From positions 1 through 25,801 of the IMG/VR virus record IMGVR_UViG_3300030102_005249: a stretch of 25,801 nucleotides of DNA. One strand, 5' to 3'. How positions within the stretch are numbered: the stretch's first letter is position 1; each line of letters begins with the position of its first letter. Both the position numbers and the translations under genes were made by a program. Below are positions 1-24,317 of the stretch, piece after piece. Below the pieces are notes generated by a model. It had not been told where the DNA came from and searched no databases. It saw nothing but the letters and a program-made list of their open reading frames with translations. The stretch is from a virus.

Positions 1-3000
1 CACTTCAGATACTGATTTACCTTTTAAAAATCTTGAAGCAGCAGCGTTTTTCATCCAGTTTATTGGTCCGATATCATTAGCATAGGTAATAAAAGATGTT
101 AACTGTTTTAAAGTAACAACAGGGTTGATACCTAATCTTGACAAGATAAATACATCTTGCATAATATTAACAGTAGTATCTAAATTAGCACCAGCTTGTG
201 AAAGACCTTTGTTAGAAAGTTTTTCAATCGCTGCTTGTATTACTTCATTTAAATTAGAACCAGGATATAACTTGTCAATAGTATCTCTGATAATTTTATT
301 TGAGAATAATTTATTTATATCATTTACTGGTCTACCATAAGCTGCAAAGTATTCCATATCTCTCATATATGAGAACAATGCGTCATTACCATCCACAGCA
401 ACAATAGCTTTTTTAGCATTCGCATTTCTTAGCTTGGTAGAGTTTGCTGTTACAGGACTATTGTATTGAGGTGTTCCAGATAGAATATCTTGACCTTCAG
501 ATTCTACACCTTCTCTGTAAACCATACCTGCATAGTTTAAATTGTAAGGCATATCTACTCTATACAAGTCTTTATATGCTTCGTTATAATGTTCGTAAAG
601 CATTGGGAAAAAAACATTGACTTGCCAATCAGCATATTCTTTGAGCTCAGGATAATTAGTTTCTAATTCATTTGTTATATCCTGCATGATTTGCTCATAG
701 TTTGGACCGAACCGTGCTTCAAAACCTGGGTGGTTTTGTGGATCTTTGTATTGATTGTATAGATAATACATTTGATTTGGACTTAATGAAACACCATGCT
801 TCATTATTGCATCTTCCAACTTTTGATTATTTTCTTTTGTAGGGTTTTCTCTGTATGCTTTTTCTGCTTTCTCAACCGCTTCTTTATCTTTTATAATGAC
901 TTGTGGTAACTTACGAGTATACTTAGCCATAACTTTTTTATAGTTTTTACCAAACAGCTCTCGCATTTTTACAATCATAAATGCTTGATTAGTAAGCATT
1001 CTTTCTTTATATATTCTTGTTGCCTCATCAATTCTTTTAGTTACTAACTCTTGTGTGTTACCCTCAAAAATTTCACCAGGTAATTTAGATATAGCATCCA
1101 TTAAAATAAACAAATCTGAATTTTTGTTCATTGTATTTAATAAAGTCCTGTTTAATTTTTTACCTATTCTTTTTAATATATTGCTTGAGCTTTCTCTATT
1201 CTCTTGTTCGTCTTTTATATTATTTAAATTTTTCTTAATATCCTCTATGATATCTGTAACCTTGTCTTGCACCTCTTCATTAGAAGGATTTTCAACACCC
1301 TCAGCTTCTAATTCTTTCCTTGCCTGTTCTTCAAATGATTCCCTTCTACCAGTTATATCTAAGAATAAACTCTCAAATTGTCTTCTGTACTCTAAATGTT
1401 GTTGTCTTAGTTGCTCTTTGAAATTAGTCCTACCAGTTAAAATAATTTGTTTTAATTGTTCAGATAGTTCAGCTAATGTTTCAACCTTTGCTAAATCTGT
1501 ATTTTCCATTAATAAACTACTGGTAACTCTTTGGATAGCAATCCTTAAGTTTTCCATTGTATCGTAATCAGAATTAGTCTTAGCAGGTTTTTTATTTATA
1601 TCATTATATTTTTTTTCTAAAGAGGCTAAGTAATTTGTAACACTTTCAAAAGTATTTAAATCTACGTTTGGATTTATAAGTTTATTTATTTCTTGTAATC
1701 TTTTTCTTGTTTCATTATCTATTTGAACACCTTTTAATCTGTCATTTATTTTTTTTACACCAGTTGTTTTCAGTAGATCTGTTACTATTCTTTCTAATAT
1801 TTCGTTATTTTTTTTAGCTGCCTCTTCTAAAATTTGATTTCTTACGTTTTCAATATTATCTACCGTGGCATCATTTATTAATTTTAGTAACCTGTTTAAG
1901 TCTGATTTAACATAAACAGTTTTGGGCATGACTTTTCTCAAAAAGTTTCTCAACTCTTGCTGAACTAATTTTAATTCTCTGGCACCTCGTTTTTGTGAAT
2001 TTAAAATAATACGAGATCTTTTAATTGCCTGAGCTAAATCATTACTCTTTCTACCTCCTAACGCTTCAGCTATTTCTATTTCAACTAATCTTTGTTTAGT
2101 AGAAAGTGACTTTGTGTTTTTAACAGCCAGCTTTTTGAAAGCCGATTGAGACTTTAGATATTCCATAGTCTCATCCATAATCTCCTGCTCAGATTTTTTT
2201 ACTTTAGCTTTTGCATTTTTCTTTAGTAGTTGATTGTATTTTTTAAATACTTTAGTATATAATTTAATACCATTTAGCATACCACCTTCGATACTTCCTA
2301 ATGATGGGGGTATAGATGAAAAAATATCTGCATCAACCTTCATTAAAGAACTAATAAACCTTTTACCAAACTTTCTTACTCTTGTTAGATAATCTGTTAT
2401 AGCAGGATCAGTAAAGCCTTGAACCCTTGCGGTCTTTATGATATCAACTGGATCATCAAACTTATTAAAAGCCTTTTGAGATTTTTCTTTTATTTGTCTT
2501 TTGTTTTTATCTTTTGGTCTGTAGATATTTCCTTCTACATCTCTTAAATAATATGATGTAATCTCTCCTATATCTCCACGAGATACATCAACTGTAAAGC
2601 CCAAACTTTTAGCCCACTCTGTTAGAGCTGCTCTTGAATAAATATTAGGTTTGATAAAACCACTATCATTCATTTGATAGAATTTGACCAAGCGATCCAT
2701 ACCCGCTTTCTGATTCTTTTCTTGTAAGTTTATTGTTTCTGATTCGACTGGCACTCCTTTTGGAACCCTTGCAACATACTGACCACCCATAGCAGATTTA
2801 GCAGCAAAAGGTTTTGGTCTGTCTTTAAGAGGGGTAGGAGTCATTTTTTTAGACTTAGGTCTTGAATTAGGATAAACCTTTCTCACATCCACAGCATTAT
2901 TAAATACCATGATAGGTTTACCATCTATTACAAATGGATATGATGGATGAAAATTAGGATCACCCTCTCTTACTTCTCTTATTGGAGAGTTCTTTTCAAA

Positions 3001-6000
3001 TTGTATAGCTGAGACGATATCACCATATTGAACATTTTTAAGTGAGGGATCATTAACATAATCTAAAACACCAGTGTCATAAGTTTTATTAGCTTCCATT
3101 GGTGGTATTCCAAATCTGTCAGCAGATGTTCCTGTAAAAAATTGTTGAGCAAATAAAGCTCTTTCAGCGTAAGAAAATCTATTATCTCCTTCAAAAGGCA
3201 TCAAAGTATTTAGCTGTTCCAAATTTTGTATTTGACTTGGAGCATTTTTGTTTTTAAGAATTTTTGATATAGCTGGGTTTTTAAGCTTTTCATTTACATA
3301 ACTTAAAAGATCTTTTGCGCTTGCTCCTTTATTTATAGCATGTGCTATTTCAGCGTTTAAATATTGCCAAAAATTAAAACTACCTCTAATACCACCTGGA
3401 CCTTGAACCATGACCAAACCCACACCATCGCTTTCTTTTACCTTGTTTAATACTCGTTGAGCATCTTGTTCTCGTGTGAAAGCCCAACCATAACCAGTTC
3501 CGTAAGGATATAAATATCCACCGTTGAACTTAAATTTTAATCCTGACGGACTTTCTATCGTCCCATAGGTAGCCATATCAGCTGCATAAACAAAAGCTTT
3601 AGATCCGCTTAAATCATTAATAGAGCCTCTTTTAATTTTACTAATATCAATACCACCTCTATCTATTTGATTTTTTTCTGTTATCTCTAAATCAATAGAA
3701 CCACCATCATCAGGTATGTTGTTTGGTATTTCACCTTCGGCATTCTCTACCATTTCACCTGGTATTAGTTCTATATCTCCTTCTGTTATTTCTGTTCCTT
3801 CCTGAACTTTTTTAGATGCCGTGTTAAAGAAATCAATAATATCTTTTTCTTCTTTCGTAAACTCATTTGTATTTATGGGTAAACCTGAAAGTTTTATTAA
3901 TCTATTTAACCATCTTTTTATAATATTTTTTGGTTCTGTAGATAAGGATGTATAGTTAGCAGCTAACATACCAAACAACTCTGCGGTTTGTTCTTCACTT
4001 TGATCAACAGTTTCGTAGTCAGCAGCAAAATCTTTTAATACTTTTTTAACCTCAGGATTCTTCACAGATTTTATTACAGCTTTCAACATTCTCTCTGTCT
4101 GTGCTTTGAAGTTAGGTTGTAAACCAAATTTCTTTACTAATAAAGCATGAAATATTTCATGGGGAATAGTAGTGTTTAACGCTTCACTTGCATTAATATG
4201 AATAGTATTTGTCATGGGTGCAAATGTACCCTTGGTACCTTGACTATCCTTACTAACCGCTTTGTTATATGCATCTTTAGTTGAGTGTATTATAATGTTT
4301 ACCCCTGGTAATATTTTAGATATAGCTTTACCAGCTTTTTCTGCTTGAGATATAATCTTTTCTTTTACTGTTGCGTTTTCAGTAATTTTTACATTATCAG
4401 AAATACTACGCCCTTTATAATTTACTTTGGTGCCGTCATTTTTGGTTACAGATATATTTTCTGAATCAGTTTCAGTTGTTGTTTCTGTTCCTGTTTGCTG
4501 ACCTACTGCTGCTTCTAAATCACCAACTTCTTGTTGTAGGTTTTGATCCGTTTCGGTCTCTTGTTTTACTAACGTTATAATACTTTTGTCTAAAGGTATA
4601 GTTTCTATAACTCCTAAATTAGGATCTCTAACAACGATAGCATCATGTCCTTTAGCAATAATATCCCTAATTTTTTGCACTGTCCACACTTCAGTTTTCT
4701 CTACTTCAAATGGATTTTTAGGGTTTATCTTTGCTGTATATTTATTTCTTGTACCGTCCTCTTTATAAGTATTAGATCTATTCTTTGGTCCAAAGAAAAA
4801 TAAATTTTTTGGAACAGGACCTTCTTTAGTTTCGTTAGTGTTTTCAAAATCTAAATCAGACATTAAATCCTCTTCAGTTTCTTTTCCATATCGTACTTGT
4901 ACTTCTCCTTCCTCTACTTCCTCTTCCGTCTTCGTTTCAGTCTCTGTACCACTTTCTTGGTCACCCTCTCTGGCAGGTCGCTGAACTTGGTCGGATACTC
5001 CCTCAACCACTTCTTGAGTAGTTTCGGATTCGACTGCGCCAGTTTTCTCCACTGGGCTTTGCTTTGTACTGGCATTTATTTTATTATTTATTTGTTCAGG
5101 AGTTGGGTTTTCAACACCATCATCCTTTAATTCTTGTATTGCTTTTTCTCTCTGCTCTAATAAAGCCTTGTCTCTTTCAAGTTGAGCATCACCTTCTTTT
5201 ATGATTTTATCAACTTCAGCTTCTAACTCAGCTTTTTCATTTTGTTGTCTTTTTGTAAGTTGATTATTATATTTATCAATATAATCAGAAAGTTCCTGTT
5301 GTCTTAATAAATTAGCTAATAATATTTTCTTTTTAGGGGTTGGTAAATCAGCTGGTATTTTATTCATAACACCAACTACTTGATCATACATTGCTATTTT
5401 ATTCTGACCAGCTTTTTTATCAATCTTACCATCTAATATTTCTTGTTTAGTTTTTTGAACATATGTATCTTTTACAATATCTGAGTTATGTAAGTCTTCA
5501 AACAATTCAAATACACCTTCATCTAAAGTTGTAAAATCACCTTGGGATGCTGCTGTCGCTACAGCTCCAGGCATTGACATAATTTTTCCACCCACAGCTT
5601 CTTGAGCTGCTGCTCTTAATACCTGTTGAACACCATCTGTAAATGATTCTGGTGTTTGAAATAAGTCAGAACCTTTCCATGCGTTGTATGCTTCTTTAAA
5701 ACTTATATCTGCTACCTCTTGTAAAAATCCTGTTTCAAATTCAGCTAAACCACCGGCTCCTATAATTAATGTACCTTGAGCAATCATGTTATTAACCTCT
5801 TTTTTCACAACATCTCTAAAAGTTTTGTTAGTTACATTAACTCCTTTTTTATTTAAAACTCTTAGTAAAATAGCATTAGCAACTCCTTTCTGAGCTAAAA
5901 CATTTCTAACACCATAGTTTTCTAATAAACCAACTACTGTACCTAAAGGAATTACAAAAGCCGCTTTTTCGTTTTCAGTCACGTCAGCAAATTGTGGTTG

Positions 6001-7677
6001 CTCCATTTCTCTCAAAACATAATCCTGAGCTTGTAAAACCATAGATATTGGTCTGAGGTATCCTGACTGTATAATAGCTGGTAATGATTTTGTTACACCA
6101 AGAACTGCACCACCCCAAAATGATTCTTCAGTTTTTTCTGTCCACTCAGGTGTAGTTTCCGTGCCCCACACTTCTCTGTTTCCTTTTCTTATAGCCTCTA
6201 ATAATCCAGTATTAGTATCATACTTTGTGTCATTAGCGTATAAAGAATAAGGATTTCTATATACAATCTCACCAGGATCACGTTCATATTTAATTCTTTT
6301 TTTCTCCTCATCTTTTATTTCTTTTCTTAAATCTTTAAAATCGACATCATCCCTGCTTTCTGCTGCTTTTTTTATTAGGTTTTCAACTTCTGAATATTTA
6401 TCAGGATCTTTAGCTATATCAGCTATCCTTTCATTAGAATAAGATGAGCCTAATAATCCTTTCTCTCTTGCTTTTTCCATAATTGTAGTACGATACCACA
6501 CTGGGTTAGAAAAATCTAAACCTACAGTTTCAACCATTATATCAACTAAAAAGTTTGTTTTTCCTGCATCAATACCAGCAAATCCATCAGCAATAGCGTT
6601 CCACAATCCTCCTAAACTACTACCTTGTCTTGATCTCATTTCAGACCATGCTCCAATTTTTTGATCTAACTCTTTACCTTCCAGCTTTAAAACTTGTTCT
6701 TGTTTGGCCAGAAGATTTTCTGCATCTAATAATTTTAGTTTTAATTGTAAAGGTGTAGTTGCTTGTATATCACCTTCTGGACCTCGTGTATATATTACCT
6801 TGTTAGGATCAGCATTGTCTAAATCGTTTTGGTCATAAAATGTTTTTGCTCTTATGTATTCTTTAATGTTTTTTGCTTGAACATCAGACCTTTCGCTAAA
6901 ATCTTTTATTTTATTTTTTACTTCTTCTTCGCTTTGTATTTTTGCTGTATTATGTTTGAATCCTTCTTCTAAAAAATAAAGCTTTTGACTTTCATCTTTG
7001 TTAGTTCTTAAAAATTCTCTTAGCTTTTTTGATTCTCTATCTTCAGAGCCAAACAGGTTGCCAGTAAAAGGATCTAAATTAATTCTTATTTCTTTTCCAT
7101 TTTTAGATCTAACTTTCATTGCATCTAAACCAACTGCCTGTTCGAACTCAAATCCATAGTCCCCAAAATGATAGTTCATCAAAGGCACTACTTGTTGCTC
7201 TTCTCTATCTATTAAGGTTTTGTCTATTTTTTGTAAAGACTGTGAGAAATAATCATCAGGCTCATCAAGCTCTTCTTTTACTTCTAATGTATCAAACTTA
7301 AATGCGGATGTATCTCCTTCAGAAATTGTTTCAGGATTAACTAATTTATTAGGATCAACTTTATTTGGATCGCTTGGATCGGTTACTGAAGATTCCGATG
7401 AGCCAGGAACGACCTGATCTGGAGGTGTATCTGACTCCATAACGTCCTGAACTTGCGTAGAAGTGACATCGGGATTTTTTTTTTCCACAGAAATACCCAT
7501 CAAATCCACAAAAGTATTTACGTCATCCTCATACCCTTCCTCAACAAAAAACTGATACGCTGTATTCACAGCATTAGCATCAGAGTTAAGTAGTTGTTGA
7601 AACTCTTCTACGCTTCCGTTATAACCTTCCTCTTGAAAAAGTTTGTAGGCTAAATCTATTGGGTTTTGTTCCTCCAT
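1..7677 (-). CDS. Giant polyvalent-type virion/ejection protein, at least 2559 aa, runs off the left edge
   Basis: A single minus-strand frame stays open from an ATG at 7675-7677 to base 1, giving 2559 codons with no stop; I checked the frame in triplets over most of its length. The start overlaps the stop of the upstream gene as TAATG, which suggests translational coupling. In order I see: a 30-residue tandem repeat (residues 10-60); glycine-rich hydrophobic stretches (about 520-720) with an FxTxFLQEVAD motif; a charged Glu/Lys region (about 770-940); a partial ADP-ribosyltransferase-like segment (about 958-1037); an HEIFH zinc-protease motif (1173-1177) with candidate third-ligand glutamates at 1228, 1229 and 1233; a compact Gly/aromatic-rich block (about 1345-1605); long Lys/Glu helical stretches (about 1610-2330); and a mixed C-terminal part. 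Mosaic giants like this are known in phages as polyvalent proteins. Its place after two small internal-protein genes suggests a T7 gp16-like protein carried in the virion and ejected into the cell. The role is inferred; the open frame is seen directly. Confidence 0.9.
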   Translation of the reverse strand, partial: MEEQNPIDLAYKLFQEEGYNGSVEEFQQLLNSDANAVNTAYQFFVEEGYEDDVNTFVDLMGISVEKKNPDVTSTQVQDVMESDTPPDQVVPGSSESSVTDPSDPNKVDPNKLVNPETISEGDTSAFKFDTLEVKEELDEPDDYFSQSLQKIDKTLIDREEQQVVPLMNYHFGDYGFEFEQAVGLDAMKVRSKNGKEIRINLDPFTGNLFGSEDRESKKLREFLRTNKDESQKLYFLEEGFKHNTAKIQSEEEVKNKIKDFSERSDVQAKNIKEYIRAKTFYDQNDLDNADPNKVIYTRGPEGDIQATTPLQLKLKLLDAENLLAKQEQVLKLEGKELDQKIGAWSEMRSRQGSSLGGLWNAIADGFAGIDAGKTNFLVDIMVETVGLDFSNPVWYRTTIMEKAREKGLLGSSYSNERIADIAKDPDKYSEVENLIKKAAESRDDVDFKDLRKEIKDEEKKRIKYERDPGEIVYRNPYSLYANDTKYDTNTGLLEAIRKGNREVWGTETTPEWTEKTEESFWGGAVLGVTKSLPAIIQSGYLRPISMVLQAQDYVLREMEQPQFADVTENEKAAFVIPLGTVVGLLENYGVRNVLAQKGVANAILLRVLNKKGVNVTNKTFRDVVKKEVNNMIAQGTLIIGAGGLAEFETGFLQEVADISFKEAYNAWKGSDLFQTPESFTDGVQQVLRAAAQEAVGGKIMSMPGAVATAASQGDFTTLDEGVFELFEDLHNSDIVKDTYVQKTKQEILDGKIDKKAGQNKIAMYDQVVGVMNKIPADLPTPKKKILLANLLRQQELSDYIDKYNNQLTKRQQNEKAELEAEVDKIIKEGDAQLERDKALLEQREKAIQELKDDGVENPTPEQINNKINASTKQSPVEKTGAVESETTQEVVEGVSDQVQRPAREGDQESGTETETKTEEEVEEGEVQVRYGKETEEDLMSDLDFENTNETKEGPVPKNLFFFGPKNRSNTYKEDGTRNKYTAKINPKNPFEVEKTEVWTVQKIRDIIAKGHDAIVVRDPNLGVIETIPLDKSIITLVKQETETDQNLQQEVGDLEAAVGQQTGTETTTETDSENISVTKNDGTKVNYKGRSISDNVKITENATVKEKIISQAEKAGKAISKILPGVNIIIHSTKDAYNKAVSKDSQGTKGTFAPMTNTIHINASEALNTTIPHEIFHALLVKKFGLQPNFKAQTERMLKAVIKSVKNPEVKKVLKDFAADYETVDQSEEQTAELFGMLAANYTSLSTEPKNIIKRWLNRLIKLSGLPINTNEFTKEEKDIIDFFNTASKKVQEGTEITEGDIELIPGEMVENAEGEIPNNIPDDGGSIDLEITEKNQIDRGGIDISKIKRGSINDLSGSKAFVYAADMATYGTIESPSGLKFKFNGGYLYPYGTGYGWAFTREQDAQRVLNKVKESDGVGLVMVQGPGGIRGSFNFWQYLNAEIAHAINKGASAKDLLSYVNEKLKNPAISKILKNKNAPSQIQNLEQLNTLMPFEGDNRFSYAERALFAQQFFTGTSADRFGIPPMEANKTYDTGVLDYVNDPSLKNVQYGDIVSAIQFEKNSPIREVREGDPNFHPSYPFVIDGKPIMVFNNAVDVRKVYPNSRPKSKKMTPTPLKDRPKPFAAKSAMGGQYVARVPKGVPVESETINLQEKNQKAGMDRLVKFYQMNDSGFIKPNIYSRAALTEWAKSLGFTVDVSRGDIGEITSYYLRDVEGNIYRPKDKNKRQIKEKSQKAFNKFDDPVDIIKTARVQGFTDPAITDYLTRVRKFGKRFISSLMKVDADIFSSIPPSLGSIEGGMLNGIKLYTKVFKKYNQLLKKNAKAKVKKSEQEIMDETMEYLKSQSAFKKLAVKNTKSLSTKQRLVEIEIAEALGGRKSNDLAQAIKRSRIILNSQKRGARELKLVQQELRNFLRKVMPKTVYVKSDLNRLLKLINDATVDNIENVRNQILEEAAKKNNEILERIVTDLLKTTGVKKINDRLKGVQIDNETRKRLQEINKLINPNVDLNTFESVTNYLASLEKKYNDINKKPAKTNSDYDTMENLRIAIQRVTSSLLMENTDLAKVETLAELSEQLKQIILTGRTNFKEQLRQQHLEYRRQFESLFLDITGRRESFEEQARKELEAEGVENPSNEEVQDKVTDIIEDIKKNLNNIKDEQENRESSSNILKRIGKKLNRTLLNTMNKNSDLFILMDAISKLPGEIFEGNTQELVTKRIDEATRIYKERMLTNQAFMIVKMRELFGKNYKKVMAKYTRKLPQVIIKDKEAVEKAEKAYRENPTKENNQKLEDAIMKHGVSLSPNQMYYLYNQYKDPQNHPGFEARFGPNYEQIMQDITNELETNYPELKEYADWQVNVFFPMLYEHYNEAYKDLYRVDMPYNLNYAGMVYREGVESEGQDILSGTPQYNSPVTANSTKLRNANAKKAIVAVDGNDALFSYMRDMEYFAAYGRPVNDINKLFSNKIIRDTIDKLYPGSNLNEVIQAAIEKLSNKGLSQAGANLDTTVNIMQDVFILSRLGINPVVTLKQLTSFITYANDIGPINWMKNAAASRFLKGKSVSEV
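3955..4300 (-). other. HExxH metallopeptidase-like domain within the giant protein
   Basis: The motif HEIFH lies at residues 1173-1177 (bases 4147-4161). It is preceded by a strand-like TNTIHINAS and followed by a helix. About 50-56 residues further on, SEEQTAELFG offers glutamates 1228, 1229 and 1233 as a gluzincin-type third zinc ligand. This is the usual layout of small zinc metallopeptidase domains in phage polyvalent proteins. The motif is seen directly; activity and substrate (cell wall, host protein or self-processing) are inferred. Confidence 0.6.
4567..4806 (-). other. Partial ADP-ribosyltransferase-like segment within the giant protein
   Basis: Residues about 958-1037 contain FFFG, then INPKNPFEVE, then IIAKGHDAIVVRD and a closing IETIPLDKSIIT. 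This order resembles the C-terminal half of ART-type domains in phage polyvalent proteins (a KNP turn, a GYDGIIV-like strand, then a final VFDPxQI-like strand). I do not see the N-terminal NAD-binding His or Arg or a clear catalytic Glu in ARTT-loop context, so this may be a degenerate or structural remnant. The match is from memory of the pattern and needs a profile search. Confidence 0.35.
7492..7677 (-). repeat. N-terminal 30-residue tandem repeat in the giant protein
   Basis: Residues 10-30 and 40-60 share the pattern A-Y-x-x-F-x-E-E-G-Y, then V, F and L at matching positions, offset by exactly 30 residues. Each copy looks like a short two-helix unit. I do not know its function; an N-terminal packaging or docking signal is one possibility. 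Confidence 0.7.
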
Positions 7678-9503
7678 TATTTTGGTTTATTAAATCCTCC
7701 AGCTCTACCGCCACCAGCCTTATTAGCTTTTCTGATCTCTGTATTAACAGAAGCTCGAATATCATCATAAACATCTGATATTAATTTATCTCCCGCTCTT
7801 ATTTCGTATTCTTGATTGTTAACTTTATATGTAAGGGTTTCACTGTCTTCATCAAATTTGATATCAGTAAATGAAGAGTTAGGTGGCATAAATCCTTCTA
7901 CAGAAACTAATCTTTTAATTTCATTTTCTATGACACCCTTATCTATCTTTCTTTCTTTTAAAATATCACTTATCCCTCTTCCAGCATCAGCATCTGTTAA
8001 ATTAGAGAAGAAAGTTTCAAACCCTAATCCTTCTGGTACTTGTTGAATACCTGGTCTTGTTTTTTGAGCACCGAACACTTCTATTTCATCAAAGGTAACT
8101 GTTTGACCAATTTGTCCTCCAAGACTTACGTATTCGTCAAATTCTCCTGGAGCGTTAACTGCTTTGTATAGTCTTCTTATGGCATCTGTGGAGTTTAACC
8201 CCTCAGTGCTAATCTCTAACGGATCTCTACCTGTATATGTTATTTCAAAACCTGTTCCTGTTTTTTTAATTTTTTGTATCGTTCCGTTGCTTGCATCTAC
8301 TAAATATCTTGCAGCTGATTCCGCTTGATCTGGATTACCAGTAACAAGTAAATTTACATTGTTACCAGCGGATTTTATTTTATCATCCGCTTTACCAGCA
8401 GCTCTACCACCTGGTCTTATTTTAACCTGTTTAGTTTCTTTTACATCTAATGTAGACTGTATCAAATCAGTAGCATAATTTTTTGCCGCCTCTTCTTGTT
8501 TTTCATCAAACTTAGGCATCATAACATTAATGTCATTTACCTCAGCTACAATAACAGGATTTTCTTTACCAGGGTTTTCCTGAGCGTATTTATCATAGTC
8601 CTCCTGTGAGCCATATTTATATGCTTCTCCTGATGGTGTAGTTAATCCAGCATTAACCATCATATTTCCTTTGTTAGTGGGATCTTTAGTAAATTTTTGA
8701 ACCTGTAAGGCTAAATAGTCTTTACCCTTTTTAGTAGCAAAGTATTCTGTCTCAGCTCTACTTCTCATTGTTTCTGTAATAACAATATCATCATTTCCAG
8801 TTGCACCCCTAATATTAGAAGTTATTATATTACCAAATGATTTTTTAATTTTTTGTGCCTCTTGATTAGCATCAAAGTTATCTATTTGTTGGTTCATTAA
8901 ATTAGAAACACCATTGACACTACTGCTTTTACCAGCAATAGGGTTGCCATTTTTGTCAAGTTTTATAAGTCCTAAATTACCAGTTACAGCGTCTGTTTCA
9001 AGAACCATGTTATTTATATTAGCAAAACCACTTAAAAGTTCAGCTGAATATGCTTCTAATGGAGAACCTTTTGATACGCTTGAAGTAGCGTTTAATTTTT
9101 CATTTTGTCTGTTGGTGTAGTTTTGAAATGCTTTGTCAAAATTTTCAGCATTTTTTTTCAACTGTGTAAATCCAGTTTTTTGATTCATTTGGAATCTTTT
9201 CAGATCAGCTGGTTTTACTAATCCCTTTTTAACTAACTCATACTGATCTTGTAATTTATGAGAGCCGTCTTGTACAGCGTTCATCACCAGTTGATTCAGG
9301 GTGTAGTTATTATACAGATCCTGATTCGCTAAAAGCTCTTGTTGTTCTTGATAAGCTTTTTCTATCTCATCCTTTCTTCTTTGTCTATCATCACGAATAT
9401 CAGTAAAAGTCTTGGTAATATCTTGAGCTTGTTTTGCCCAGTCAATAGTGGATGCAGTATTTGCCCTTTCATATATCTCAAAGTTTATATTTTTTTTAGC
9501 CAT
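7677..9503 (-). CDS. Putative internal virion / ejection protein (608 aa)
   Basis: This 608-residue protein begins with a charged helical region rich in Gln, Glu and Lys (about residues 20-140), likely coiled coil. Mixed alpha/beta parts follow, and the C-terminus is Gly-rich and basic. I see no signal peptide, no transmembrane segment and no catalytic motif. It starts 11 bases after the stop of the 245-aa gene and ends in a TAATG overlap with the giant gene. Its position between a small protein with a hydrophobic N-terminus and a giant protein matches T7 gp15 in the gp14-gp15-gp16 ejection series. I rely on synteny and size rather than sequence recognition. It could also be another minor virion protein. 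Confidence 0.6.
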   Translation of the reverse strand: MAKKNINFEIYERANTASTIDWAKQAQDITKTFTDIRDDRQRRKDEIEKAYQEQQELLANQDLYNNYTLNQLVMNAVQDGSHKLQDQYELVKKGLVKPADLKRFQMNQKTGFTQLKKNAENFDKAFQNYTNRQNEKLNATSSVSKGSPLEAYSAELLSGFANINNMVLETDAVTGNLGLIKLDKNGNPIAGKSSSVNGVSNLMNQQIDNFDANQEAQKIKKSFGNIITSNIRGATGNDDIVITETMRSRAETEYFATKKGKDYLALQVQKFTKDPTNKGNMMVNAGLTTPSGEAYKYGSQEDYDKYAQENPGKENPVIVAEVNDINVMMPKFDEKQEEAAKNYATDLIQSTLDVKETKQVKIRPGGRAAGKADDKIKSAGNNVNLLVTGNPDQAESAARYLVDASNGTIQKIKKTGTGFEITYTGRDPLEISTEGLNSTDAIRRLYKAVNAPGEFDEYVSLGGQIGQTVTFDEIEVFGAQKTRPGIQQVPEGLGFETFFSNLTDADAGRGISDILKERKIDKGVIENEIKRLVSVEGFMPPNSSFTDIKFDEDSETLTYKVNNQEYEIRAGDKLISDVYDDIRASVNTEIRKANKAGGGRAGGFNKPK

Positions 9504-9514
9504 AATATTTAGTC

Positions 9515-10252
9515 CTAAAATTCAAACTTAAAACCTTCTGACATCAGCTCTGTTGGATTCATATCCATTAACTCTTTATATTGTTTTCTTGATAAATTTT
9601 GACCTTCAAGAGCTTCAATAAAATCTGCTTGATTCATCCCTTGTGGTGTCATATCCGAAAATTTATCAGCTACCTTACTGGCTCTTCTGGTATTTTGAGC
9701 TTGTTGATATAAAGGGACAAGGTCAGCCGCTGACGTAGCCGCTTGACCTATACCGCTAATACCAGATTGTATAGCAGCATTTTGTGCCTCCAAAGCATCC
9801 TGTCTTTGTTTCATAGAATCTCTGGCAAAAGCTACATCCATTTGAACTAACTGTTGGTTTATATCATCCTTGCTTTCCCTTTTTAATTTATCTAATTCAA
9901 AAAGCTCCTCACCCATAGCTATTCTTTGTTTTTCAGCAAGGTCTCCTTGCAACGCTCCAATCCTTCCTACATTCGCTGATAGTTGTCTGGAGTCTCCTTC
10001 TTGTAAAGCTGTTAGGGCTTCTTTTTGTTGTTGAAGATTTGTTTCTGTTTCTTTTTCAAAAGCATCTAATGGTACATTTAGACCTTCAAAAAAATCTTTT
10101 TGAATGTTTGATCTTGCCTCTTCCATTGCTTCTTGAGCTGCTCTGTTAGATTCTTCAGCTAATCTCTTTTGATCAGATGCTTGTTTAAAACTCATTACTG
10201 CACCTCCAACTCCACTTGCTATACCTACTACTGCTGCGGTTACTGCTGCCAT
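9515..10252 (-). CDS. Putative small internal virion / ejection protein with hydrophobic N-terminus (245 aa)
   Basis: Residues 2-21 form an Ala/Gly/Val-rich hydrophobic stretch that could insert in a membrane. Long Gln/Glu/Lys-rich helices follow (about 25-160), then a second Ala/Gly-rich apolar stretch (about 158-183) and a polar tail. This resembles T7 gp14 and other small ejection proteins that help form a channel through the cell envelope; alanine-rich helical proteins of this kind are common in podoviruses. The ATG is one base after the TAA of the GNAT gene, so the two are probably translated together. The next gene follows after 11 bases. Function is inferred from composition and place; there is no enzyme motif. 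Confidence 0.6.
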   Translation of the reverse strand: MAAVTAAVVGIASGVGGAVMSFKQASDQKRLAEESNRAAQEAMEEARSNIQKDFFEGLNVPLDAFEKETETNLQQQKEALTALQEGDSRQLSANVGRIGALQGDLAEKQRIAMGEELFELDKLKRESKDDINQQLVQMDVAFARDSMKQRQDALEAQNAAIQSGISGIGQAATSAADLVPLYQQAQNTRRASKVADKFSDMTPQGMNQADFIEALEGQNLSRKQYKELMDMNPTELMSEGFKFEF

Positions 10253-10253
10253 A

Positions 10254-10664
10254 TTATAATGTTTTTATTAATTCTTGTGTATACATGTCGCCTTCTACAA
10301 AACCATATTTTTTATAAGCATCTACTAATGGTTTATTCTTAATTAATGCATAGACATACTTTGCTCCTTCTTTTTTAGCTTCGTCACTAATAGTTTTGAT
10401 TAAAAGTTCTAAAGCTTCTTTTCTATTTTGTCTGTCCTTATATTCTAAATTTGATATAATCCAGTCACACCACACTGCTTTTGAATTAGTTACATACATA
10501 AAGCCTGCGCAAATTGGTATGTCACCATCATATACCATAAAACCACCCATTCCATTTTGTGGTAAAAAATCTTTCGAAGGCGGAGACCATCTCCAATCTT
10601 TCCACCACTTACAAAGTATTTTATCATAATCTGTATCTTTTAGTGGGATTACATTAAATTTCAT
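10254..10664 (-). CDS. GNAT-family acetyltransferase (136 aa)
   Basis: The 136 residues have the length and layout of a single GNAT domain, which transfers an acetyl group from acetyl-CoA to an amine. I see a Trp-rich N-terminal part (WWKDWRW), a GGFMVYDGDIPICAGF strand pair, a central WCDWIISN strand, an EALELLIKTISDEA helix, and a C-terminal YKKYGFVEGD segment matching the usual Y-x-x-x-GF end of GNAT domains. The acetyl-CoA loop (Q/RxxGxG/A) is not canonical, so substrate and even activity are uncertain. The gene sits among virion genes, first in the group that ends with the giant protein, and has its own TATCTTTG box five bases before the ATG. It may modify a virion or host protein. The family call is fairly firm; the role is unknown. 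Confidence 0.75.
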   Translation of the reverse strand: MKFNVIPLKDTDYDKILCKWWKDWRWSPPSKDFLPQNGMGGFMVYDGDIPICAGFMYVTNSKAVWCDWIISNLEYKDRQNRKEALELLIKTISDEAKKEGAKYVYALIKNKPLVDAYKKYGFVEGDMYTQELIKTL

Positions 10665-11477: not shown

Positions 11478-12845
11478 TTATGGACATGGTACAATAGATC
11501 TTACAATTCCTGGTACATACGCTCCTGAAGTTTGTGTAGAGCCCACAACACCATTATAGCTACTTAAATAACCTTCCGGTGGTAATGCATGAACTGTATT
11601 GGCATTTGGTGCACAGGTGCCACCAGGATTATTTACATCTTTATATGCTCTAACACCAATAGATACATGCCAGTCTCTTAAACCAAATCCATCACCAGCA
11701 TCAAACCTCATTTTGTATTCTCCTACTGGAGCAGGATTTACACCATGCTTATCAGTGTATACCCAATCATGATATCCTAATCTTCCGTCAGGCTGTCCGT
11801 TTTTACCTGCTGTTGGAAACTGATCTCCACTTACTACATATGCTGAATTTAAATTAGTATTACCATAAGCATCAACAGGTACGTGATATAACTTTTGAGT
11901 TAATCCAGCCGCACAAACGGTGTTTGTTGGTGTATTTTGAGCTAAAAGAGCTGATGATTCAAACTCAGCTAATTCTCTTGGGCATTCAACTGTGATGCCC
12001 CACCATGTGTTTGTACAAGGTGCTGTTACTGTTATTGATAATATTGTGCTGGCTACACCTGGAGGTGATGGAACTACCATAGTAGCACCTCTATACTCAC
12101 CATTTACAGCAGGCCAATTAGTTCCAGTTGGTAAGTTTGGGGCTGCCGGTAGCGTTCCACCAAAATTTACAGGCATTCCTATACCATTTGTGTTTGGGCA
12201 TGGTCCAGGTGAAAATTGACTGCCTAAATTAGGATTATTCCAAGATAATAAGGTACATTCAGGATCTTGTCCTGCCGGTGCATTTGTTAATCCTGTTTGT
12301 GCTGGTATTGTTACGGCACCACCAGGAACAAACGATGTCGTAGCTAAATCATAATTAAAATTTGTTACATTTAAAACAGTTGGTATTCCTGTTTCTACAC
12401 AAGCATTGCACTGAGTACCTGGCTTAGGAGGTCCATCTGGTGCTCCTATCATACCTGTTTGATAACCACCAACAAGAGAGCTGTATTCAGACGCACTAAC
12501 GCCATTATATGTCCAAGTAAGTTTATCTGGTATTGGTTGACACGAACTTTGATTTATTCCAGGACTAAATGTAATTATAGAAGCACCTGGAGTGTTTCCT
12601 AATTGAAATAAAACATTGTAAACTCCTTTTTGACCTGTTGCTATAAATCCACCAGTACCACATGGAACTGCACAACTTGGACAATTAGTAGGTGCTCCTA
12701 AAACCCCACTTATTTGTTGTCTAAAAATATTACCAACCATATACCACCCATCTGGGGCCAAACTGGTTAGTGTTGCGTCTGTGTAAATAGCTGTTGCGTC
12801 AGCAAAACTTACACCGTCATAATAATAAGTTCCTATACTTGGCAT
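11478..12845 (-). CDS. Modular cysteine-rich virion protein, probably tail or receptor-binding (455 aa)
   Basis: This protein is Gly/Pro/Thr/Asn-rich and beta-predicted, typical of phage tail appendages. Residues 14-48 (TDATLTSLAPDGWY) and about 358-400 (HDWVYTD...GEYKMR...) look like two copies of a small module that also ends the 1605-aa protein. Cysteines cluster as CPSCAVPC (55-62) and CNAC (146-149), with others at 102, 197, 216, 277, 288, 311, 411 and 454. Residues about 68-145 look like a small beta-sandwich of a kind I associate with Bacteroidetes phage tails. It starts 16 bases after the nozzle gene, without a Shine-Dalgarno. Adhesion or host recognition is an inference from composition and place; I see no enzyme motif. 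Confidence 0.6.
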   Translation of the reverse strand: MPSIGTYYYDGVSFADATAIYTDATLTSLAPDGWYMVGNIFRQQISGVLGAPTNCPSCAVPCGTGGFIATGQKGVYNVLFQLGNTPGASIITFSPGINQSSCQPIPDKLTWTYNGVSASEYSSLVGGYQTGMIGAPDGPPKPGTQCNACVETGIPTVLNVTNFNYDLATTSFVPGGAVTIPAQTGLTNAPAGQDPECTLLSWNNPNLGSQFSPGPCPNTNGIGMPVNFGGTLPAAPNLPTGTNWPAVNGEYRGATMVVPSPPGVASTILSITVTAPCTNTWWGITVECPRELAEFESSALLAQNTPTNTVCAAGLTQKLYHVPVDAYGNTNLNSAYVVSGDQFPTAGKNGQPDGRLGYHDWVYTDKHGVNPAPVGEYKMRFDAGDGFGLRDWHVSIGVRAYKDVNNPGGTCAPNANTVHALPPEGYLSSYNGVVGSTQTSGAYVPGIVRSIVPCP

Positions 12846-12861
12846 AATATTTGATTTAAAT

Positions 12862-15800
12862 TTAACATGTTCCTGTTTCTATTACTGCTCCATTATTTCC
12901 TATCCTTACATAATTCTTTGGCGACAATGCCGCTGGTTGAGATGGATCAACTACATAATATCCAGGAGCTAAATAATTATTTGTATCACAAGCTGTTCCA
13001 TTAAATACTACATCACCAATAACAGGTATCGTTCCAGGTGATCCTGTAAATGAATTAACGCTAAACCCATTAGAATTAGTATTAGTAGCGCAAGCCGTTT
13101 CAAAATCACCCTCGACAGGGCCAAAATATGCTTGAGTACAATTTGGATTACAATCACAACACACATCATCTAAACTAACATTACTGTAACATATTAATGA
13201 TTCTGTAACATCTCTGTAATCCCAAACTAAATATAAATATTGATTACCAATAGGTAAACTAACAGAGGTAGCTTTTGCTTGGAACGTATTTGTTGTTGGG
13301 TTTGTTATTGGTGTAATCTCAGTTGCACTATTTGTTATAACAATAGCGTTTGCCAAACTTGGTGTATATAAAGTATTCGAAGATAAATATTTAAACTTGT
13401 GTTGAGTTGGATCAAAATCAAAATTATCAGGTATTATTTTTTGATTTCTCATAGTGATATCCACACCATCATATGGAAATAAACCAACTGATCTTACACC
13501 TGTGTTAGATTGCCATAATGCTGGTTGATTTACAGTATCTGCTAAAACCACTGCATTATTTGAACTTGGACTAATTGTAATACCATCTGTCCATTGATAT
13601 CCAAGATGTGTTGATTGAGATGCAAAATTATTACTATTAATTACTATTTCAACAACTGTTATTTCTGGCTCTGGTGGACAGTTTACAGTAACTTCGTATG
13701 TAGCTGTATTCACAGGTGCAATTGTTACGTCAATAGTTTGTGGATTGTTAGCTGTTTTATTTATAGATAATGTACCACTATTAGTTACGTTTCCTGTTGT
13801 AACAGAATTTCCATTCCATACTGCTGTTATATTTATACCACCAGATGTTACTTGATAGGGTATATCAATTTGACCTATAACTAAACCAACATCTACTTTG
13901 TATGAGAAAGTAGTTGTTGTATCTAATTGACTTAATCTTTGACCACAGGGCACAATAACTTCTGGTACAGGAACCGGTCTGATATTTGCACTAAGAACAT
14001 ACTCATCCATATAAGGATCATATCCTCCTAATTTTTGCGTGTGTATTCCTTTTCTAAATTCATCTCTAAAGAACGATCTCATTCCATAAGAAGAAACTAT
14101 TTCTATTGAATCTGTATTAGCTGAAGTTCCTTTTAATAAAACAACTGCTCCTCTTTTAGTATCTGTAAAATATATTTGAGATCCCCAATCCGCAAAACTT
14201 TCTGGTTGGAATCCCATACCGTATTCTTCTATTCGTGCTATTTGTGTTCCTAAAACCTCAGGAACAGAAGTAATAGCACCTCCACCTGTTGAGTCTGTCA
14301 CTACATTTTTACCTGAAAGAACGTAAGATATTCTATCCTCTTGTAAAACTAATATATCCGTTTCACGAGAATGCATTTTCATTATGGGTCCAAATGAGGT
14401 TTCTAAATCTTTAAAATTAGCCAAACCTAAATTGAACTCATTTAAATTATTAACATTAGATGGGCCACTAAAAACACCACTGTATGTCATTCCAGCAAAT
14501 CTATCTGCTTCCTGAACCTCTTGGTTAGATACAGCTAAAGTTCTTTGCCCTAAATTAAATGATTTACCATCAGCTCTGTCTTGTATTCTAAAACTTTCAA
14601 TACCATTGGCAAATGTAAAACAATTACCAAACTTTAAATTCTGAACCAAATCGGTTCCAGTTGATATTGACTGATCTATATCACCAGCACCACCACTTGA
14701 TTTATGAATTAGTTGTCCTGAAGTTGGTTCTAATTCAATATCCATCATTTCAGATGCATCGTAATATAAATTTTCATCAACCGGGCCTGGATCAGTTTCA
14801 AAAGCAACCAGGTTTCCAGCTCGAGTTACCTCTATTGTTAACTCGGTGTGCCCTGGTCTTTGGTCCCCCCAAAAATTTGCACATTCTTTTAAATCTCCAT
14901 TTAATCTTACAAACATATGACTTCCTGCTGATGGTTGAACTATACAAAAATGTGCTGTAAAACATGTTCCTTTTGGTGTTTGAGATGATGAGGTAAAAGG
15001 GGCACCACCATTATTGGGGGCATTTAATGTAATTCCGTTAGAACTACCATTACCTATTAGTTGATCTATACCATCTCCATAGAAAAATTCAAAGAAATCA
15101 TTATAATCAGTAGAGGCTGTATATACTTCATCTAATCTGTAATGTTTAGCTCTACATCTATTTCCACTACCACCTCTCCATATATTAATATTAATCCTTA
15201 CTTGAGATCCAGCTGGTAGGGTATAAGGAGTACCAGAGTTTGGATCAGAAGTGTCATTTAGTGAATATTTTACTGATGGTTTACCATTGTCACAATTTCT
15301 TTTTTCATTTACTTTTGTTAATCTACCGTAATTTATAAAAGCACCGTCTAATATTTCAGTCGAAAAATTAGGTTTTAAAACCATATATAGTCCTGCCTGC
15401 AATAAGTTACCTACAACAGGATAATCTGCATCTTCTTTACCCGCTGCAATAACATCTAATACTGTAACCTCAGTAGTTATTGGTCTGGGACCAAGTGTAT
15501 CTAACTTACAAAAAAGCTTCATACCCTTTTGCACAATGTTTGTATTGTCTCCTTCTAATTTAAAATAAAATATAGATGACTCATCCTGAGACTGAAAAAA
15601 GAGATTACTATAAACCATGTTATAGTCTCCTTTACTTGGTTTCATAACAAACTTATATTTTTTAGCCCACGCTGGTGGTAAGGATTTTAATGTTACTTTC
15701 ACTGAGTTTTTAGCTGTGCTATATTCGGCTGGAATAAACACTGTATTCTCCTCACTAACAACAACTGTTGTAGCTCTCGCATATTCATCCATATAAACAA

Positions 15801-17679
15801 CACCTACCTCATAATCTCTATCACTGTGTAAACTCAAAGTATTATCTGATCTTAAATATCCAGATGCGCTTCCGAAACCTGAAAACTCAAAGTATTCGTA
15901 TTGATTAGCAACTGGTGAACAGGTGGGGTTGTAATATTGAACAGCTGGTGCTTTCAAAGTAAACGTATTACCTACAAAAGATAAAGAAAAACCTTGGGGT
16001 GAACATCCTGAACTTGGAGGGCAATTAGTTGGAATACAAGTGTTTGTAATAGCTGTGTTTACATGACACCATCCAGCCACCACAGCGGGTGCAACTATAT
16101 TAGCGTTAAATTTATCTGTAAGCGTTCCACCAGTAGATGCTTGATCAATTTCTTTAAACTGTCCTGTTGCATTACCTGGACCTGTTATTCCAATAGGATA
16201 TGCAAACTCAGCTGATGCTATCATAGTGGATACATTAGCATATTGTGTTGTAGCAGTAAAAGTCCAATCTAAAGAAAATGGACTTACATTTTGATACCCA
16301 GGGACTAAACAACCGGGATCACCACTACCATTTGAACCTTGACCTGAAACAACTGTTCCTGAACTTGACATTTGTACAGAAAAATTAAAAGTAGTACCAG
16401 GCTCAACAGGATCAGTACCATAGGCAGATAAATCAAAAGTTATTTCTGAATTTGGAACTGATTGAGAAACTCCAGATATAGAATAATTAGAGCCAGTGGA
16501 AGTGGTAGGTTCAGCAAGCCCCTCGCCTCCGATTACCTGATGTACAGGTTCTACAAAATAATCTACTAAAATCTTATTACCAGCTAAATCAACTAAATTA
16601 TATCCGTCCACATAGTTACCGTACATTAATCTGTTACCCTGAATAGTTTGTGCTTTTGCTGTACGAGGTACATTATCGTATAATCTTAATAGTTCATCCG
16701 ATCCTAAAGTTGTGTATATTTTAGCGTTATCAAATGTAATTGTTTGTTGTGTATTGTCTGGCCACCCAAACTTTTCTTTATTATATCTTTCTATTACATA
16801 AATGATGTTAGAGTTAGTGTCTTTATATAATAAATCTATTGAAATAACTCTTTTTGATCCAGTGCTAAATGTTATTTCAGCAGCGTTGAATTTATTAGTC
16901 ATTGATATATTAGAAAACGTAGATATATCAAATTGAAAAGCTTTCGGTTGAAAGGCGGGATTGCTAAATAAAGAAGTAGCACTGTAGCTTCCATCAGTAT
17001 ATTTATAACGATAAGCGAAACAAACAAATTTATTTTCTAAATAGTTTTCGCCACCTGGTATTTCGATAAGTTTTACATCAGGAGTTGGTAAGGGAAATGG
17101 AGATACTCCTGTTCCATCTTCAAACCCAGGTGGCTTTAAAATAACACTTATATCTTCTTCTTCAATACCATCAGTAGCCCCAACTGGTTGAGGGTAATTT
17201 CTTTCTACATTAATATATCTTGGTGGATTTAAATCATCAGTAAAATATAAATACTCTTCTATTTTATTTACACCTGTAATTAAAAACTCTTTATCAAAAT
17301 TTAAAGTAGATATACTTATTACATGGTAAGTTAATAATCCTGCTGTCGTTTCATACGAACATATCATATCAACTATACCAGTGGGTGAATTAGGAACATT
17401 CTCTGCATGAACAAACCAATACAAGGTTTCTTTCATGCTATCTTCATATGCACCTATTGTTCTAACAGTAGCTGGTACTTGATTTAGTTTTGTGCCTCTA
17501 AACTCTAAATCAGTTAATAGCGTATTACCTTTTGAGTTTTCAACAGCTCCGATTTCAGTTCCTTCTGTTGATCCTAAACGAACATTTAAAGCATCAACAT
17601 ATTGACCTTTAGGAACTAAGCGCTCATCCACGCTCTTGTTCATTTTACCCGCAATAAAGTTAGTTCTTATTATTGCCAT
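12862..17679 (-). CDS. Large tail nozzle / tail-stabilisation-like protein (1605 aa)
   Basis: The N-terminus (GKMNKSVDERLVPKGQYVDA, then ALNVRLGSTEGTEIGAVENSKGN) is the start I associate with P22 gp10-like stabilisation/nozzle proteins and the 'muzzle' of crAss-like phages. Further hallmarks are HSDRDYEVGVVYMDEYARA, a PAWAKKYKFVMKPSKGDYNM segment and the GGYDPYMDEYVL motif at residues 1218-1229. The family folds as a beta-propeller-rich ring closing the tail tube. The last 375 residues look added: Ig-like beta repeats, a CCDCNPNC cluster (1507-1514) and a final module (1555-1605) shared with the next gene. A Cys-rich loop (CIPTNCPPSSGC) also interrupts the body. The ATG lies one base after the stop of the upstream ring gene. 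The structural role is well supported; the accessory part may face outward and bind host or ions. Confidence 0.8.
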   Translation of the reverse strand: MAIIRTNFIAGKMNKSVDERLVPKGQYVDALNVRLGSTEGTEIGAVENSKGNTLLTDLEFRGTKLNQVPATVRTIGAYEDSMKETLYWFVHAENVPNSPTGIVDMICSYETTAGLLTYHVISISTLNFDKEFLITGVNKIEEYLYFTDDLNPPRYINVERNYPQPVGATDGIEEEDISVILKPPGFEDGTGVSPFPLPTPDVKLIEIPGGENYLENKFVCFAYRYKYTDGSYSATSLFSNPAFQPKAFQFDISTFSNISMTNKFNAAEITFSTGSKRVISIDLLYKDTNSNIIYVIERYNKEKFGWPDNTQQTITFDNAKIYTTLGSDELLRLYDNVPRTAKAQTIQGNRLMYGNYVDGYNLVDLAGNKILVDYFVEPVHQVIGGEGLAEPTTSTGSNYSISGVSQSVPNSEITFDLSAYGTDPVEPGTTFNFSVQMSSSGTVVSGQGSNGSGDPGCLVPGYQNVSPFSLDWTFTATTQYANVSTMIASAEFAYPIGITGPGNATGQFKEIDQASTGGTLTDKFNANIVAPAVVAGWCHVNTAITNTCIPTNCPPSSGCSPQGFSLSFVGNTFTLKAPAVQYYNPTCSPVANQYEYFEFSGFGSASGYLRSDNTLSLHSDRDYEVGVVYMDEYARATTVVVSEENTVFIPAEYSTAKNSVKVTLKSLPPAWAKKYKFVMKPSKGDYNMVYSNLFFQSQDESSIFYFKLEGDNTNIVQKGMKLFCKLDTLGPRPITTEVTVLDVIAAGKEDADYPVVGNLLQAGLYMVLKPNFSTEILDGAFINYGRLTKVNEKRNCDNGKPSVKYSLNDTSDPNSGTPYTLPAGSQVRININIWRGGSGNRCRAKHYRLDEVYTASTDYNDFFEFFYGDGIDQLIGNGSSNGITLNAPNNGGAPFTSSSQTPKGTCFTAHFCIVQPSAGSHMFVRLNGDLKECANFWGDQRPGHTELTIEVTRAGNLVAFETDPGPVDENLYYDASEMMDIELEPTSGQLIHKSSGGAGDIDQSISTGTDLVQNLKFGNCFTFANGIESFRIQDRADGKSFNLGQRTLAVSNQEVQEADRFAGMTYSGVFSGPSNVNNLNEFNLGLANFKDLETSFGPIMKMHSRETDILVLQEDRISYVLSGKNVVTDSTGGGAITSVPEVLGTQIARIEEYGMGFQPESFADWGSQIYFTDTKRGAVVLLKGTSANTDSIEIVSSYGMRSFFRDEFRKGIHTQKLGGYDPYMDEYVLSANIRPVPVPEVIVPCGQRLSQLDTTTTFSYKVDVGLVIGQIDIPYQVTSGGINITAVWNGNSVTTGNVTNSGTLSINKTANNPQTIDVTIAPVNTATYEVTVNCPPEPEITVVEIVINSNNFASQSTHLGYQWTDGITISPSSNNAVVLADTVNQPALWQSNTGVRSVGLFPYDGVDITMRNQKIIPDNFDFDPTQHKFKYLSSNTLYTPSLANAIVITNSATEITPITNPTTNTFQAKATSVSLPIGNQYLYLVWDYRDVTESLICYSNVSLDDVCCDCNPNCTQAYFGPVEGDFETACATNTNSNGFSVNSFTGSPGTIPVIGDVVFNGTACDTNNYLAPGYYVVDPSQPAALSPKNYVRIGNNGAVIETGTC

Positions 17680-23150: not shown

Positions 23151-24317
23151 TTATACTTTTTTTATACTTCTAATTTTGAGTCCTCTTCCACTACTTTGAT
23201 CGCCTACACTACGAATCTTTAATCCATCTTTACTGAATGTTTGTGGGGTTTTTCTCATGTCCATATTAATGTTTTTTGATTTTTTAGAAACATTATCTAC
23301 AGCTTGAGTCATACCTTGATTGTAAAAAAACTCAGCAAACTTGTCAAGATTCATAGCTACTGCCATGGCTTTGTGATATCCTTTCGCATCTTTTATTAAT
23401 CCTGTTTCTTTGTCCATATATTTATTGACAAAATTATTTACATTGGATTGTTTAGACTTCAATTCATTACTGTCACCCGGCTTGAAAGTAAAACTTTTTT
23501 CTCCGACACTAAACTCAAAACCTTTGAACTCATCGTTAAAAACCTCATTGGTTTTTTCGAGAAAATAATTATACCTCTTTTTTTGCGCTTCAACCTTAGA
23601 GTTAGATTCCTCTATATAACTTTTATAGCTATCAAACTTCTTCTTGTCCTCGTCAGATAACCCACCCCCACTTGACTCAAGAGGAGTTTTATATTTATCT
23701 CGTTGTTCATTTAAAAACTTTTTAGCTTTTACAAGTTCTCTTTTTTTGGCTAACTGTTTCTTCTTGATATCTTTCGGCTCATCAATTTCCTCATCATAAG
23801 AAAATTTATCCTCCAGTATATCTCGAATATCCTCACTATCTAATCCCTCTTCAGTAATTGAATAGTAAGCAGCCAGCACTTGGTCTCCGTCCATGTCGTC
23901 ATAGTTTTTTTGTAACTCGACAAAATCTTTGATTCCACGGCCAGTTTCCTTTTTATACTTGAAATACGCTGCAACATCTTCTGGTAATTCTTCGTTTGAT
24001 TCTTTTGTTTCAAACAATTGATCTACCGACTCGATGTCTTTGTCATATCTATTTTTAATATAAGAAAGAACGTCTGCATCATTTAACTCTGATGCGGGAG
24101 ATTTTTGTGTTTCACTTTCCTGTTGTACTTCTTCTTGTTTCGTATCGGTGTTGGCACTCGTAGTGCTTGTATCCACTCGCTCCACTTTATTTTCTTCCAC
24201 TCCAGCTTGATTTCCTTCCATTTTTTGTTCATGATCTTTTAAGAGTTTTTCTTCTATCTCTTGTTTGGATTTTTCAACGCCAGATACGTCTTTTACAATA
24301 AATTTATTTTCTTCCAT
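23151..24317 (-). CDS. Capsid scaffolding protein (388 aa)
   Basis: The sequence is highly charged (Glu, Asp, Lys), low in aromatics and predicted helical, with a disordered Thr/Glu/Gln-rich N-terminal third and coiled-coil stretches at about 180-265. Scaffolds of this type guide capsid assembly and leave before DNA packaging. The end carries two copies of GLKIRS, at residues 365-370 and 379-384, just before a basic C-terminus; scaffold C-termini often bind the capsid protein. It lies between portal and capsid, the classic place. I see no Ser-His-Asp or other protease signature. Its leader shares AACTTAA and AATTAAATAAAATG with the 261-aa gene and contains a weak TAAATTTG box. Confidence 0.75.
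   Translation of the reverse strand: MEENKFIVKDVSGVEKSKQEIEEKLLKDHEQKMEGNQAGVEENKVERVDTSTTSANTDTKQEEVQQESETQKSPASELNDADVLSYIKNRYDKDIESVDQLFETKESNEELPEDVAAYFKYKKETGRGIKDFVELQKNYDDMDGDQVLAAYYSITEEGLDSEDIRDILEDKFSYDEEIDEPKDIKKKQLAKKRELVKAKKFLNEQRDKYKTPLESSGGGLSDEDKKKFDSYKSYIEESNSKVEAQKKRYNYFLEKTNEVFNDEFKGFEFSVGEKSFTFKPGDSNELKSKQSNVNNFVNKYMDKETGLIKDAKGYHKAMAVAMNLDKFAEFFYNQGMTQAVDNVSKKSKNINMDMRKTPQTFSKDGLKIRSVGDQSSGRGLKIRSIKKV

Follow-up and report, generated by a model that had tools for sequence, protein, structure and literature searches.

A giant modular protein at the T7 gp16 position of a short-tailed Bacteroidota phage, a putative polyvalent ejection protein

Introduction

In phages T7 and DEV, the ejection genes gp14-gp15-gp16 and gp73-gp72-gp71 have a matching layout, and in DEV an ejection role has been proposed for the giant virion RNA polymerase (vRNAP) as well (PMC10925440). 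The muzzle gene of crAss001 is followed by those for the cargo proteins gp45-gp47 (PMC10172136). Polyvalent proteins are multi-domain, encoded beside virion genes and variable in architecture, with a zincin metallopeptidase (MPTase) as their hub; these MPTases have a His where strand 2 ends, and a downstream Glu (Iyer et al. 2017, PMC5512222).

We analysed a window of 25,801 bp, the whole of a virus record from a short-tailed phage of the marine, Bacteroidota-infecting type, which carries a giant gene cut by the contig end. Like T7 gp16, other podovirus ejection proteins and DEV gp71, the giant is the last and largest product of its cassette, is cysteine-free and has large helical parts. Unlike T7 gp16 and DEV gp71, it carries a zincin and slot cassettes, and no transglycosylase or RNA polymerase domain was found in it. 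The cassette also resembles crassvirus gp45, gp46 and gp47, being three cargo genes after a muzzle gene with near-absent cysteine and Bacteroidota hosts, whereas crassvirus gp47 is annotated as RNA-polymerase-associated (PMC10172136), unlike the window giant. With polyvalent proteins it shares a gene beside late virion genes and a zincin with HEXXH and a downstream Glu, but its family differs from them in having fixed backbones with two exchange slots (PMC5512222). We consider it likely that the giant, which stands where T7 has gp16, is the third ejection protein of a short-tailed Bacteroidota phage and the largest of the three, and that it is built as a polyvalent protein. The likeness to gp16 is one of working only: no Pfam, PHROG or NCBIfam match indicated gp16 homology or a transglycosylase domain in the window giant.

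Results

The giant frame and its relatives

The initial annotation described a long open frame that leaves the window, joined to its upstream gene by a TAATG overlap. Both features are present. The minus-strand frame at 1-7677 is free of stops from its ATG for 2559 codons (2559 aa, 289 kDa visible) until the contig end cuts the gene and leaves the remainder unreadable. On the coding strand the junction reads ...CCAAAATAATGG..., the ATG of the giant overlapping the stop of the upstream 608-aa gene. From alignment with the giant of locus L002 (2984 aa, with its own stop), approximately 390 C-terminal residues are missing.

A zincin-based scan identified 215 relatives in viral contigs, from which 80 loci were kept; with those found earlier, 90 giants were compared (loci are numbered L002, L003 and so on). 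Full-length members have 1700-3900 aa. In the C-terminal half, L002 and L003 are 56% and 51% identical to the window giant, and L009-L012 are 49-72% identical to it across residues 1365-1650. Because the relatives come from independent viral contigs, are colinear and are mostly intact (several run from start to stop, at 2357-3859 aa), a frameshift or assembly error behind the frame is very unlikely. The family is virus-restricted, with 215 relatives in viral contigs against one in 84,980 genomes. That sole match, L099 (JAAGZR010000163.1), lies on a 35-kb contig inside an Aliivibrio MAG and is probably a stray phage contig. At their C-termini the giants of L002 and L003 carry consecutive (D/S)NPM repeats (e.g. 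DNPMERVNPMHSENPMSNSNPMSSDNPMLD), possibly a packaging or binding motif, and L005 is without them.

Operon position and virion evidence

The window encodes, in series, the portal, scaffold, major capsid protein (MCP), ring and tail proteins, a muzzle-like protein, fibres, and finally the cassette:

9515..10252, minus strand: gp14-like protein, 245 aa, 0 Cys; PHROG 13764, virion structural protein
7677..9503, minus strand: gp15-like protein, 608 aa, 0 Cys; in relatives its C-tail is co-exchanged with the N-terminal tag of the giant
1..7677, minus strand: giant virion/ejection protein (putative), 2559 aa seen, C-terminus beyond the contig end, 0 Cys

This order bears out the earlier placing of the giant at the end of the virion operon, behind gp14- and gp15-like neighbours. 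It is the third gene of the cassette, as gp16 is in T7, with the largest gene last. The gp14-like protein has a hydrophobic N-terminal helix (KD 1.85). No sequence similarity was detected between the muzzle-like protein and solved chains.

The gp14-like, gp15-like, giant order is kept in Elemovirus, Tenacibaculum phage Gundel_1, Cellulophaga phages phi38:1, phi40:1 and phi18:3, and Manatee Spring phage; phi40:1 gp101, phi18:3 gp123, Gundel_1 gp074 and Elemovirus gp21 occupy the same gene position as the window giant. For phi40:1 gp099/gp100/gp101 and phi18:3 gp120/gp121/gp123, notes in the GenBank records rest the annotation on experimental MS/MS proteomics, so that presence in the virion is documented in these relatives. 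The Elemovirus and Gundel_1 proteins are labelled 'structural protein' without an MS/MS note, and these labels were left out of the experimental evidence.

The window giant is connected to these proteins through a chain of similarities. It matches the Elemovirus giant at about 7e-35, over the zincin and beyond, and the Gundel_1 giant at 1e-8 in module B (domains are listed below); the Gundel_1 giant in turn matches those of phi38:1 (6e-16) and phi18:3 (9e-14). With hhalign, the module A profile aligned to an Elemovirus plus Gundel_1 profile with a probability of 82% (E 1e-5), and weakly to phi38:1/phi18:3/Gundel (25%, E 8e-4). In the giants of phi38:1 (close to phi40:1; 1691 aa) and phi18:3 (1935 aa), the zincin and slot-2 domains were not detected. 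Since MS/MS-annotated Cellulophaga proteins occupy the same position and cysteine is excluded as in proven ejected proteins (see below), the window giant is probably a virion protein, as had been suggested for it, although its direct similarity to the MS/MS-annotated relatives is weak.

Two further genes were observed in this region. Directly before the gp14-like gene, inside the virion operon, 10254-10664 encodes a 136-aa GNAT-like protein (PHROG 17252, 1e-41) that is kept in L019, L060, L070 and Manatee Spring phage; with 3 Cys it falls outside the ejected set by the cysteine mark. In L010 (1363-2586) and L070, upstream of the giant, there is a gene of approximately 403-407 aa starting M[EY]SIF(I/V)QIASYRDPELIPT, glycosyltransferase-like by eye; in some relatives its neighbours are tail fibre genes.

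Domain order

Domain boundaries were set by pairwise and profile comparisons, and give the following order (all minus strand):

7474..7677, minus strand: N-terminal tag, residues 1-68; a repeat of approximately 30 aa, twice, then EKKN (KKK[DES] in most relatives)
5164..7248, minus strand: backbone module A, residues 144-838; conserved stretches 144-357 and 524-838
5548..6117, minus strand: Gly-rich hydrophobic block, residues 521-710, inside module A
4408..5070, minus strand: variable slot 1 (or variable linker), residues 870-1090; holds the ART-like segment of the initial annotation
3763..4395, minus strand: zincin-like metallopeptidase domain, residues 1095-1305
4147..4161, minus strand: HEIFH motif, residues 1173-1177
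2818..3615, minus strand: slot-2 domain, residues 1355-1620; 265 aa, without a Pfam match, in 48 of 90 giants
1..2718, minus strand: helical backbone module B, residues 1654-2559; cut here, approximately 1250 aa when complete

Most of this architecture had been noticed in the letters of the window, and the relatives now give it substance. Self-alignment confirms the N-terminal repeat, with a score of 61 where shuffles gave 23.6 +/- 5.4 and none of 60 reached 61. The Gly-rich hydrophobic block (approximately 520-710), the HExxH site (HEIFH, 1173-1177), the unnamed block at 1355-1620 and the long helices from residue 1654 to the end are each conserved among relatives, and the mosaic architecture reappears there as fixed modules with an exchangeable tag and slots.

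The zincin and the two variable slots

In a nine-sequence seed alignment of the zincin, His1131, the His1160 of IHI, the HEXXH residues of HEIFH and Glu1228/1229 are invariant. The strand-2-end His and downstream Glu agree with those of polyvalent-protein MPTases, whereas the Asp that follows HEXXH in one MPTase clade is absent (PMC5512222). Fold matches include, weakly, IrrE-type zincins. The zincin was found in 86 of 90 giants, largely by construction as the scan was based on it. It could cut the giant either before or after entry.

An ART-like segment had also been read into slot 1. The window giant has no ART match in Pfam, PHROG or NCBIfam, and the segment has no relative in viral contigs and no match to the ART of L037; we dropped this assignment. 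As to the further idea that several activities would travel as one molecule, the one catalytic signature visible is that of the zincin: the window giant has a single recognisable enzyme domain plus a slot-2 domain without known function.

Slot 2 (counted with an HMM built with the zincin masked) is variably occupied. Identity between L019 and L024 is 84% for residues 1-1360 and 96% for module B, and L024 has no slot-2 domain. Among giants without this domain, the distance from zincin to module B ranges from 44 to 1057 residues; at the lower end, the slot of L003 is nearly empty. Relatives of the window giant match the Pfam models LPD23 (5.7e-12) and ART-PolyVal (2.5e-9, L037 residues 2027-2236), and relatives also carry DUF3293, DUF7178 (Pfam scans) and GNAT-like domains. 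Because of the LPD23, ART-PolyVal, DUF3293 and DUF7178 matches, we group the giant family with the polyvalent proteins, even though the window member itself matches no Pfam polyvalent model.

Such cargo raises the question of whether effector delivery is the main role, the slots carrying host-attack or counter-defence domains in every phage while the other two proteins perform DNA entry. The ART-PolyVal, DUF3293 and GNAT-like domains of relatives fit this reading, as does the slot difference between the near-isogenic L019 and L024. We nevertheless hold it to be unlikely, as the 44-residue slot of L003 indicates that slot-2 cargo is dispensable and the conservation of modules A and B points to a core entry role.

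Structure models

The model of the zincin and slot-2 stretch had a mean pLDDT of 75.5 (slot 2 approximately 90) and matched Elemovirus and other phage proteins in BFVD (1.9e-17); Foldseek against the PDB returned no match at E <= 0.001. In the VIA list, YTH chains and a few of EVE type topped the slot-2 rows (Z 5.5-7.2, under the reliable range), and hhalign against YTHDF1-3 sequence profiles gave a probability of 0.1%. A YTH m6A reader in slot 2 was rejected, the fold rows being suggestive but below reliable Z and without sequence support. Sequence searches of the PDB found nothing significant for the giant, the muzzle-like protein or the zincin plus slot-2 profile.

The module B model (pLDDT 68) matched the Gundel_1 structural protein (2.5e-24), several polyvalent-annotated phage proteins and the T7-like 'Protein inside capsid D' (3e-4) in BFVD. 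Against solved structures its matches were weak (Z at most 6.8), including the PhiM1 ejectosome at Z 4.6 over 204 residues.

These searches bear on whether the giant is an N4- or crAss-type virion RNA polymerase that has diverged beyond recognition. The vRNAP of N4 (3500 aa) has the same operon position, is cysteine-free and has an MPTase domain, and one relative of the window giant has a weak match to N4_RNAP_helical (0.037). Yet no RNA polymerase family in Pfam, PHROG or NCBIfam matches the window, the structure searches with the two modelled stretches brought up no polymerase, and the central region is taken up by the zincin and slot cassettes. We regard a polymerase as very improbable, and retain the reading of a polyvalent-type ejection protein.

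The N-terminal twin-repeat tag

Among 81 intact N-termini, a twin repeat beats all 60 shuffles in 54, and a KKK motif lies within 110 residues in 57. Between phages the repeat unit is wholly different (FIPPSDAV, LPKPxDIL, TPPLPSGYEPI and GYxYFVxTGYxGTxxDFxxL are examples). In three independent pairs, L029/L030, L070/L082 and L038/L065, different tags precede 200 residues that are 91-98% identical, and at the DNA level the replaced block includes the end of the gp15-like gene. Across 61 loci, tag similarity correlated with similarity of the last 40 residues of the gp15-like protein (partial r 0.39, both bodies corrected); for the gp15-like body, the partial r was 0.11. DNA adjacency may explain this correlation as well as physical contact does.

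No second copy of the tag was found in other genes at the same loci or elsewhere in the L030 record, and we rejected the notion of a tag common to several proteins. The gp15-like C-tails of L030 and L038 have a similar TEWxxxNPGxxxxD stretch (LTKTEWMEANPGKTAADYVAYFNA; DAEKTEWEKENPGSKIKDILKSD) beside quite different tags. A term search of PMC5512222 found no description of an exchangeable N-terminal twin-repeat tag.

Cysteine exclusion

Cysteine is absent from all 3412 aa of the window cassette (giant, gp15-like and gp14-like proteins). The other twelve window proteins have 58 in 5054 aa (1.15%), at which rate none in 3412 aa has a chance of about 1e-17. Across the 90 giants there are 13 Cys in 238,133 aa (0.0055%), versus 1.39% for the genes that lie downstream on the opposite strand at these loci. 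Tryptophan is merely about twofold lower in the window giant, so the absence of cysteine is not a matter of simple composition.

The same depletion is found in proven cases. The ejected or cargo proteins of T7, P22, N4 and crAss001 have 8 Cys in 15,192 aa (0.053%), against 279 in 27,538 aa (1.01%) in 61 other proteins of these phages (binomial P per phage: T7, 4e-11; P22, 2.5e-6; N4, 2e-16; crAss001, 6e-19). The N4 vRNAP has 0 Cys in 3500 aa. In the same comparison scaffolds are also cysteine-free (0 in 1015 aa), as are some short proteins: the P22 needle and GtrB, N4 MCP and gp57, and crAss001 gp27 and gp31. By these counts the mark can be read clearly in long proteins but is ambiguous in short ones. 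As cysteine is also missing from scaffolds and from a few short proteins of the capsid or tail, the exclusion may mark the capsid interior rather than ejection. Within the window, the scaffold-like protein (23151-24317) has 0 Cys in 388 aa, the fibre-like protein (11478-12845) 13 in 455 aa and the muzzle-like protein (12862-17679) 25 in 1605 aa. We found no description of cysteine exclusion in ejection proteins in the open-access literature, from which it does not follow that it is unpublished.

A giant that remains in the particle as part of the internal core or tail, without ever being injected, and whose zincin matures virion proteins during assembly, would also account for part of these data: MS/MS record notes speak for virion presence and not for transfer, the scaffolds are cysteine-free without being injected, and DdrB of P1 is processed before packaging (PMC5512222). 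We judge this quite unlikely, given that operon position and cysteine exclusion are as in the ejected proteins of T7, P22, N4 and crAss001, and that swapping of cassettes in mid-protein would be unusual for a static structural protein.

Discussion

The giant is best understood as a polyvalent protein that occupies the ejection slot of gp16. The operon, the order of domains, the exchange of cassettes and the exclusion of cysteine are seen directly in the sequences, and presence in the virion is documented for proteins at this position in relatives. From these comparisons we infer ejection, the channel roles, a docking partner, proteolysis and a host target as follows. Copies of the giant would be packed in the head together with the gp14-like and gp15-like proteins, and at infection all three would exit via the tail, largely unfolded, before the DNA. 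The gp14-like protein, with its hydrophobic N-terminal helix, and the gp15-like protein would form the envelope channel. The twin repeat of the giant would dock to a phage-specific partner, for which the gp15-like C-tail is the best candidate, and the hydrophobic module A and helical module B may aid inner-membrane crossing and DNA admission. The zincin would then cleave the giant chain or a host target, freeing the slot-2 domain for the cytoplasm. Cysteine would be excluded because the chains pass unfolded through a thiol-oxidising periplasm, or because they sit in the capsid.

We offer more tentatively, as a possibility somewhat short of an even chance, the combined proposal that proteins ejected through the tail are purged of cysteine and that the twin repeat plus KKK is an exchangeable docking tag pairing with the gp15-like C-tail. 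If this is true, long cysteine-free proteins would predict the injected set in uncharacterised phages, and the twin-repeat tag, inherited with the gp15-like C-tail, would pair both proteins in packaging or ejection.

The window giant links polyvalent conflict proteins and T7-type ejection proteins, which are usually treated separately, at one gene position, and that position has MS/MS support in cultured phages. The gene is modular, its cargo domains and N-terminal tag being swapped between phages, and cysteine exclusion provides a simple computable mark for proteins that may be injected.
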